Part shown: piece by piece, positions 13,535-19,041 of the stretch
How the letters are laid out: each line of letters opens with the position of its first letter
Position numbering within the stretch: position 1 is the first letter of the stretch
From: Arachidicoccus sp.
Lineage (GTDB): Bacteria > Bacteroidota > Bacteroidia > Chitinophagales > Chitinophagaceae
Direction: 5' to 3'
NCBI GenBank assembly: GCA_028283605.1
Contig: JAPWKH010000032.1
Location: forward strand, 1-64,000
Length of the DNA stretch: 64,000 nucleotides
Translations under genes and position numbers: made by a program
Notes under the pieces: generated by a model
Databases searched by the model: none
The model's input: the letters and a program-made list of their open reading frames with translations, nothing else
What the model was told of the DNA's origin: nothing

Positions 13535-13607
13535 GGTGCGGTAGCTCAGTCGGTAGAGCAAAGGACTGAAAATCCTTGTGTCGCCGGTTCGATCCCGGCT
13601 CACACCA
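13535..13607 (+). tRNA. tRNA-Phe (anticodon GAA)
   Basis: A 73-nt cloverleaf: D arm GCTC/GAGC, anticodon stem AAGGA/TCCTT with loop CTGAAAA (GAA anticodon), variable GTGTC, T arm GCCGG/CCGGC with TTCGATC loop, discriminator A. CCA is not encoded (CGG follows). The acceptor stem GGTGCGG/TCACACC holds one C5-A68 mismatch and one G7-T66 wobble, which is unusual. Its 3' 42 nt plus two downstream bases recur at 37199-37242, marking it as the integration site of an island. Confidence 0.93.
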
Positions 13608-13609
13608 CG
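13566..13609 (+). repeat. attL: 44-nt direct repeat at the 3' end of tRNA-Phe
   Basis: The 44 nt from the anticodon loop (CTGAAAATCC) to the base pair after the discriminator (CACCACG) are identical to 37199-37242. The identity starts and stops sharply; the following terminator hairpins in the two copies are related but diverged. This is the normal appearance of att sites after tyrosine-recombinase integration into a tRNA gene. Confidence 0.88.
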
Positions 13610-13612
13610 GAA

Positions 13613-13650
13613 GTCGGAACTCAAGTATAGCAAGAGTTCCGGCTTTTTTT
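13613..13650 (+). terminator. Terminator after tRNA-Phe (island-side copy)
   Basis: GTCGGAACTC and GAGTTCCGGC form a 10-bp stem (one G-T pair) followed by a T-run. A diverged counterpart lies after the right att copy at 37243-37283. The right copy would be the original chromosomal terminator and this one came with the island. Confidence 0.85.
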
Positions 13651-13678
13651 ATGTCCTTAAGGGTTACCACTCGACAAA

Positions 13679-14595
13679 ATGAAGCGCATGCACCTGTTCG
13701 GTATGCACCGAGCCTTCAGCGGCAGCATGGAAAACTCTTCTGCCGAACTATTTCAAAGACTTGTCGATTTTTTGGTATATCGCGAGAAACCTATTATCAA
13801 TGGAAAAGAAATTACGAGCAGAAGGGCGAGGTTGGTTTAATCAATAGTAAACCTTGTCCTCAAAATCCAAAGCTTCGGATAGCGGCTGAAATTGAAGAGA
13901 AAATTCTTTATTTGCGAAAGACTTATCATCTAGGTCAAATGCGTATTTCTTGGTATTTAAAGCGGCTATCACGATATAAAAGTTTCTGCCTCTTGCATTT
14001 GGTATGTATTGAAACGAAACGGGTTAAATCGGCTTCCTCAAAACCAGCGAAAACGCTCTATGAAACAGTTTAAGCGATACGAAAAACAAGTACCGGGTCA
14101 TCGAATTCAGATTGATGTAAAGTTTCTTTCATTCACAGAGAAACAAAGTGGAAAAGAAATTAAACGCTACCAATATACCGCCATAGATGATGCCACAAGG
14201 GCTCGCGTATTAAAGATATTTGATAAGCACAATCAACAATGCAATGTGCTATTGAGTTTGTCGATTATGTTTGTTCTCGTTTTCCTTTTCGCATTCACAC
14301 TATCCAGACCGATAATGGTCATGAGTTTCAAGCCTTATTTCATTGACACTGTGAAGATTTGGGTATCAGACATGTTTATATTAGAAAAGCAAGCCCTCAC
14401 CTCAATGGCAAAGTAGAAAGATCTCATCTTACAGACCAGCGCGAGTTTTACCAATTATTGGAATATAAAGACGATATTGATATCTCAAAGAAATTGGAAG
14501 AGTGGGAAATATTTTATAATTCGTATCGACCCAATGGCGCATTAAACGGAAAAACACCCTATGAAGTTCTAAAAGAAAAATTAACCCCAAAATAA
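13679..14595 (+). pseudogene. IS481-family transposase, frameshifted and nonsense-mutated
   Basis: Three overlapping track ORFs (13576, 14009 and 14359 starts) are pieces of one DDE transposase. In order: HTH (CRFFGISRETYYQWKRNYEQ), the linker YLRKTYHLGQMRISWYL, KRNGLNRLPQNQRKR, catalytic core starting GHRIQIDVKFLSF (first Asp), QTDNGHEFQ (second Asp) and SPHLNGKVERSH (Glu), and the tail YNSYRPNGALNGKTPYEVLKEK. Defects: a frameshift near 13965; a 5-nt tandem duplication (CAATG) near 14242 compared with the copy at 63.5 kb; and TGA where that copy has TGG, just before HCEDLG. The 5' end of the element is missing beside the att site. It cannot make active transposase. Confidence 0.85.
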
Positions 14596-17784: not shown

Positions 17785-18386
17785 TCACAGAATATAACTC
17801 TTCACACTATCGCTATACACGCGATGAGTGTCTGTGCTAATACCTGCGACACGAAATTTATATTGAGTGCCGCTCGTAAGTCCGGGAAGCAGCAGATGAC
17901 TTTTCGTATGCACGGCAATTATCCAATCAGCAACTCCTGCCACGCGGTATTTATACTGATAGCTTTGTACGCCGTATATTGCTTTAAGACTCAGCTTTAC
18001 CATGCCCTCTGAAGGAACCGCCTTAAAATTTACTGGCTAGGCAAGAATGCCGACCGGTTCGGGCGTTTTGCTTACGGAAAAGCCGGACGACGCCATTGCT
18101 GCCATAATGCCGTTGCTGGCTCCCTGCACATACAAGGCAAGCATATTCAGCAACTGTATCAGCGCTATTTTCTTTTGGTCGCGTACATCTTTTGTACCCA
18201 AACCGCCACCTGTAAAGCAGTAACCGCTGCCTGAAAATCTATAAGCGCGGCTTGTACACTTTCAAGTGTGAGTACAGGTGTTGGGAAAACGGCATTGCCC
18301 GTCATGTTTTGGATAATGAACTGCGTTTTGGCTTCAAGGTCGGCATCGGAATAAGCCGCAAAACCGGTTGAAACTTTGTTGCTCAT
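17785..18386 (-). pseudogene. Fibronectin type III-containing small protein, broken by a frameshift and a TAG
   Basis: Two track ORFs belong to one gene of a family frequent in Bacteroidota. The head starts at ATG 18386 (MSNKVSTGFAAYSDADLEAK), then a helical segment. A frameshift after about LQVAV separates it from the continuation KDVRDQKKIALIQLLNMLALYVQG...SGFSVSKTPEPVGILA, visible in the next frame. That is followed by a TAG at 18037-18039, then PVNFKAVPSEGMVKLSLKAIYG and the FN3 domain (YKYRVAGVADW, LTSGTQYKFRVAGIS). With two lesions the gene is dead. Function of the family is unknown; upstream heptad-repeat DNA may belong to the same decayed locus. Confidence 0.8.
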
Positions 18387-18524
18387 AATGAACATTTTTT
18401 GATTTTGATAATATGTAGAAAAGCATCGATACATGTCCTTCGGGTATTAATCGAAATAAGTTTGGGCAAAAGGAAGTATTTTTTGTACTTGGAATAATAT
18501 TATTTAATGCTAACCGAGTGAAGA

Positions 18525-18755
18525 TTTGTATCAATTTTCCGGAGATTGGCATCAATTTATAAGAATTTGGCATCGAAAAGAGAAAAATCGGTATCAATTT
18601 CCGGCGGCTTTGTATCGGTGGGTCATTTTTCTGCATCGTTTTTGGGTTTTATAATAACGGGAAACGCTTTATTGACATCAAAAAATTGTTTTTTGATATG
18701 GATAAGTTTGTTTGAGGTGTCACGAAAGTTGTCAATAACATCGAAAATCTGGTTT
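18525..18755. repeat. Array of eleven 21-bp units, a decayed heptad-repeat coding region
   Basis: The tetramer C/TATC recurs at exactly 21-bp steps: 18529, 18550, 18571, 18592, 18613, 18634, (18655 TAAC), 18676, (18697 TATG), (18718 TGTC) and 18739. Unit consensus is about TTGNYATC plus 13 variable bases. On the minus strand each unit encodes seven residues with a hydrophobic-Asp start (IFDVIDN, IDTDFSL, FDAKFL, IDANLRK, IDTNL), a coiled-coil-like heptad, but with two stop codons. The plus strand is open for 73 codons (track ORF at 18546) in a less protein-like composition. Most of the 18387-18815 gap is this array; the remainder shows nothing. Confidence 0.7.
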
Positions 18756-18815
18756 GAACTCCGCTAAGAAAGAAATGTGCATTATATCCTGCGGCTGTTA
18801 ATACTTATCTGTGGC

Positions 18816-18926: not shown

Positions 18927-19041
18927 ACATAAAATTAGCATTGCAAAGAGGTGAATTGCGAATAAACGGCGTTACAAAAGCATTTCAGAGGCGTTACAAA
19001 AGCGTTACATTACTCCCGAAGGAGTATTTTGAGGGAATTTA

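Follow-up and report, generated by a model that had tools for sequence, protein, structure and literature searches.

Plasmid iterons, which lie upstream of rep genes, are tandem repeats of about 17-22 bp set in helical phase. In the BvgA system, head-to-head dimers occur every 22 bp, or every two turns, along one face of the DNA, and the six sites concerned are of low affinity and lack strong sequence features (PMC7250471). For a LytTR protein of the CoxC/RcoM type, three direct repeats at a spacing of about two turns have been described (PMC11347149). The periodic arrays reported here are found across the Bacteroidota, upstream of genes for small proteins that are uncharacterised, and one of them lies in the window (the whole stretch of 64,000 nucleotides analysed here).

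The array in the window (Table 1) had been picked out by a sequence-only reading as a short motif recurring eleven times at 21-bp spacing, and this pattern is clearly present, as YATC or a near variant opens eleven successive 21-bp rows from position 18529 with 41 of 44 cells matching. At other periods from 5 to 59 the score never exceeded 32, and in 30 Markov-2 control sequences of 64 kb it never exceeded 30. The periodicity also withstood a formal test against shuffled sequence: identity at lags 21, 42 and 63 was 0.456, compared with 0.274 +/- 0.018 over 5000 dinucleotide-preserving shuffles (z = 10.3), the largest value of any single shuffle being 0.338. A scan of lags 15-63 found no other periodic stretch in the window. 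Tandem Repeats Finder did not detect the array, as its copies are too diverged for that program. The array begins 138 bp and ends 369 bp upstream of a minus-strand gene of a family carrying a fibronectin type III (FN3) domain. This gene is broken: a frameshift lies between 18210 and 18216, and its 3' piece contains one in-frame TAG. On the other side of the array lies a gene for a TPR protein with a GerE match of 23.7 bits (cut-off 23.5) and a TPR match below cut-off; an 11-bp tandem repeat, GCGTTACAAAA, is found in 3.7 copies between this gene and the array (18969-19009). Farther away in the window, at 13576-14595, three overlapping ORFs resemble, by their translation, a broken insertion-sequence transposase.

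Table 1 Features at the array locus in the window.
Feature	Position	Strand	Basis or remark
Decayed 11-unit, 21-bp periodic array	18525..18755	(-), relative to the following FN3 gene	Periodicity tests
Gap or leader between array and ATG of the FN3 gene	18387..18524	(-)	TTTTTAA-type leader common in relatives not recognisable
FN3-family gene, 5' part, N-terminal helical domain	18216..18386	(-)	ATG at 18386; homology to relatives
FN3-family gene, 3' part including FN3 domain	17785..18210	(-)	Different frame from 5' part
595-aa TPR protein with C-terminal LuxR-type (GerE) helix-turn-helix	19042..20829	(-)	Beyond the array; candidate regulator
73-codon open frame across the array	18546..18767	(+)	Judged fortuitous

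Upstream sequences of the first homologs examined differ from one another, yet each has a 21-bp or 42-bp period. The sample of relatives comprised about 70 FN3-family loci, whose common descent means that the counts are not independent. An array of 21, 22 or 42 bp was found in 50 of 68 upstream regions, compared with 1 of 72 downstream regions, at a call threshold of 0.42 that was set on the same data, with the downstream flanks and other periods serving as controls. The period was 21 in 45 upstream regions and 22 in 5, and periods of 15-20 and 23-27 were never found in the flanks of this family. Among the remaining FN3 loci, some have an array farther upstream and some a weak signal near the threshold. 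An array is also carried by four loci that belong to other families within the class or phylum. In intact loci the array usually lies 60-480 bp upstream of the gene; a few arrays are found 0.7-2.6 kb upstream or without such a gene adjoining. In three loci (L096, L100 and L104; G167) the array lies upstream at a distance of 1.4-2.6 kb from the FN3 gene, and another 21-bp array (L168:957-1170) lies between two convergent genes with no obvious target gene. Genomic background was sampled as 400 kb from each of two genomes: in G001 a strong 21-bp array occurred only at the FN3 gene, with one weak reading of 0.442 inside a 15/30-bp repeat, and the window's own genome gave one borderline 21-bp reading of 0.421. 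No significant copies of one array were found elsewhere in four genomes. In the 110 bp before the ATG, TTTTTAA occurs in 30 of 67 FN3-family leaders, compared with 3.4 expected, and the frequency of the Bacteroidetes -7 motif is raised only slightly between array and gene. The suspected link between the array in the window and its neighbouring FN3 locus therefore stands, in that homologous genes carry such an array upstream, though not in the form first proposed, as a coiled-coil coding part of that locus.

Arrays contain 9-23 units, mostly 11-15, and at all of them the unit is about two helical turns long. Mean excess identity is 0.27, 0.34 and 0.28 at lags 21, 42 and 63 and at most about 0.03 at other lags; it is highest at lag 42, and alternate units are therefore more alike. 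The centre of an array is homogeneous and its edges are decayed. Almost every locus has a unit sequence of its own, so that only the period is kept as the array drifts in sequence. Proteins that are 70-80% identical have unrelated units (one pair at 81% has a common unit), and paralogous loci within a single genome (G330) have different ones. Unit similarity was no higher within a genome than between genomes (0.279 vs 0.305), which argues against one shared factor that reads their sequence; a single motif for a genome-wide factor was not seen in this comparison. FN3-type arrays are dyad-symmetric relative to column-permuted arrays (mean z 2.3), alike at all distances. They also fold better than column-permuted controls (mean z about -2.4), to a similar degree on the two strands and without a strand preference in fold energy, and some fold strongly better than within-column shuffles. 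Paired positions in FN3-type units showed neither covariation (106 compensatory changes, 99.6 expected) nor a G-U bias (213 vs 212 expected; A-C 225 vs 221). Dyad symmetry combined with the lack of covariation and of strand preference is consistent with a dimer that recognises the array as double-stranded DNA. Several other explanations of the pattern were rejected. Intrinsic curvature through phased A/T tracts would have left a 10.5- or 21-bp signal, and none was seen beyond column composition. A known structured RNA fits neither the missing Rfam matches at the arrays tested nor hairpins without covariation. A CRISPR array is at odds with 21-bp units without a constant repeat and spacer and with the absence of Cas families from the 25 commonest families of flanking proteins.

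An array was also found upstream of a gene for a 224-aa protein without FN3, near an integron-type integrase. This protein belongs to a second, helical gene family lacking the FN3 domain (L168:8585-9256, L177-L190 and L211-L240), one member of which has a carboxypeptidase-regulatory-like domain. In the family search 11 of 12 loci had an upstream array, and in a phylum-wide search 21 of 23, with two loci common to both sets and no downstream array in either. The identity excess at lags 21, 42 and 63 was seen again in these arrays. Comparison of the second-family profile with the helical domain of the FN3 family gave an HHalign probability of 85% (P = 6e-6), which suggests, short of proof, that the two families are probably distant relatives. 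Tested on one 231-bp stretch from each locus, second-family arrays showed no dyad symmetry (mean z 0.12). The symmetry of an array thus goes with the gene family that it precedes.

The heptad-like translations of the array arise because 21 bp equal seven codons. They had been read either as what is left of a gene for coiled-coil repeats or as a peptide still translated from the plus strand, and the frames noted are real: the 73-codon plus-strand frame exists, with a TTG start, and the minus-strand 'GAT' frame over the array has two stops. Neither proposal is supported. In relatives with intact FN3 genes, many arrays have none of their six frames open, and these refute heptad coding as a reading that would hold for the FN3 family in general. 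Slips of 1 bp occur within some arrays (L035, L032), the open strand and frame are inconsistent between loci, and a 3-bp signal is lacking. In the second family, 9 of 28 arrays likewise have all six frames closed, although some others contain long open frames. Together with the frame that is open in the window, these long frames and the heptad length of the unit are what speaks for a coding sequence, decayed or living; such a sequence is now very improbable, and the arrays are shown to be non-coding.

The FN3 domain of the first family falls below the Pfam cut-off by sequence but has profile and fold matches to FN3 structures, and the N-terminal helical domain has no Pfam or NCBIfam match above cut-off. 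The predicted structure (pLDDT 74) consists of three helices and the FN3 domain, and the structure matches listed were all to FN3 domains; no recognisable DNA-binding fold appears in the model or among these matches. Members are mostly basic (median pI 9.1). No specificity-determining or hypervariable region stands out, differences being spread evenly along the protein. Phage, plasmid and viral searches gave no matches. PHROG matches were mostly to the FN3 part of tail proteins, and two marginal PADLOC matches (SspA and DndA), to one protein only, are taken as chance. An origin of the iteron type was rejected, as the FN3-family gene has no Rep-like match and no plasmid or phage match.

Array loci have no constant partner except the gene itself. 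Four loci, all of one family (L045, L051, L092 and L094), have a stand-alone LytTR gene immediately upstream of the FN3 gene; in three of them it stands between array and gene, and in L094 the upstream sequence is too short to show an array. Among 122 flanking proteins there were five with GerE and four with LytTR, compared with at most one each among 122 random proteins, whereas phage integrases numbered 4 and 2, respectively. Several FN3 loci adjoin an integron-type tyrosine recombinase, and two of these recombinases head rows of attC-like repeats. At L173:9361-20000 and L172:9456-20000, in relatives of the window's family, same-strand ORFs come after an integron-type integrase, with attC-like repeats that end in AACGTT between them. 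The window's own genome has one integron-type integrase (L164:9567-10646, on G000:C28), with no array within 20 kb around it. Three genomes with arrays (G001, G034 and G200) lack a close homolog of this type of integrase. The arrays were accordingly not assigned to integron attC arrays, as they lie upstream of genes and several genomes have no such close homolog.

The best explanation, which is held tentatively, is that the array serves the FN3-family gene as a non-coding cis element and consists of phased DNA sites set on one face of the helix. Sites two helical turns apart would all lie on one side of the DNA, where a protein could coat the row cooperatively and so set the expression of the gene. 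The reader would be particular to each gene family, the simplest candidate being the encoded, mostly basic helical-domain protein, or else a regulator specific to the locus. That symmetry goes with gene family suggests such a family-specific reader, again most simply the encoded protein. The copy in the window is a relic that decayed along with its gene. Several points stand against this explanation. Unrelated units for proteins 70-80% identical, which seem to have no hypervariable region, would be hard to reconcile with a protein that reads its own array by sequence, and the structure model predicts no DNA-binding fold that could be recognised. A few arrays are distant from such a gene or lack one. 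The dyad differs between the families, so that no single binding geometry fits all arrays, and the folding of some arrays beyond column-wise shuffles may indicate a structural role. A broader form of the idea, in which helical-domain proteins throughout the phylum would each assemble on a private array by helical phase, as a self-addressed cassette whose sequence drifts and whose 21-bp period is held, is possible but doubtful.

Perhaps, the array is instead an extended operator of an ordinary LuxR/NarL (GerE) or LytTR regulator, and the adjacent gene is merely its target. Such regulators bind at two-helical-turn spacing with relaxed demands on sequence, as the BvgA (PMC7250471) and LytTR (PMC11347149) sites exemplify; the array in the window adjoins a TPR-GerE gene, both domains are commoner among flanking than among random proteins, and four loci have a LytTR gene next to the FN3 gene. 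However, most loci have no such regulator adjoining, no motif is common within a genome, and 9-23 units exceed the three or six sites of the described examples, and this reading is rather unlikely. Rapid turnover, a homogeneous centre with decayed edges and 42-bp higher-order units are what would be expected of a functionless minisatellite maintained by slippage or unequal exchange, with the association reflecting a mutational hotspot. A period of 21-22 bp and an upstream position that are fixed across the phylum in both families, with almost nothing elsewhere, make this account improbable, and a hotspot leaves the family-dependent symmetry unexplained. Alternatively, the active form of the array could be a folded single strand of DNA or RNA, for example as integron-related recombination sites recognised by structure or as a processed hairpin RNA. 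The better folding of FN3-type arrays than of column-permuted arrays on both strands and the integron-type recombinases beside several FN3 loci would agree with this. Pairs do not covary, however, second-family arrays lack dyads, Rfam gave no match at the arrays, and the three genomes named above have arrays but no close recombinase homolog, so that a role of this kind has at best a small chance.

The association of arrays and genes is not described in the open-access papers found, and no known family, judged by its own defining features, accounts for the array. To our knowledge, no system is defined by a period that stays fixed while the sequence varies freely and that is tied to one gene group. 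The weight of the finding lies in the association across the phylum rather than in the window's own decayed copy. A fixed repeat length and free sequence beside widespread proteins of no assigned function suggest that something in these cells measures two turns of DNA, not letters; if true, the arrays would offer a natural system in which to study DNA recognition that depends on phase, and a way of approaching these proteins.

Compared with the systems introduced at the outset, the arrays resemble iterons as phased tandem repeats upstream of one gene, but they occur in bacterial genome assemblies and are absent from the plasmid collection, adjoin no recognisable Rep gene and do not keep their unit between close homologs. 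They share with integron attC sites a variable, partly palindromic sequence and, at some loci, an adjoining integron-type integrase; attC, however, is a single long site that ends each cassette, and here a dense tandem array precedes the gene. The spacing of LytTR operators is matched by the upstream regions of period 21 (45) and 22 (5), but those operators have three repeats, FN3-type arrays are dyad-symmetric, and most loci have no LytTR neighbour. Likeness to operators of the BvgA type (NarL/LuxR) lies in the two-turn spacing of weak sites. On the dyad sites at about 22 bp that mark such operators the arrays are divided, those of the FN3 type being dyad-symmetric and those of the second family not. 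BvgA has six sites and one known regulator, whereas each array comprises 9-23 sites whose sequence is private to the locus, and no constant regulator adjoins them; should an ordinary regulator read them nonetheless, they would fall within an already known kind.
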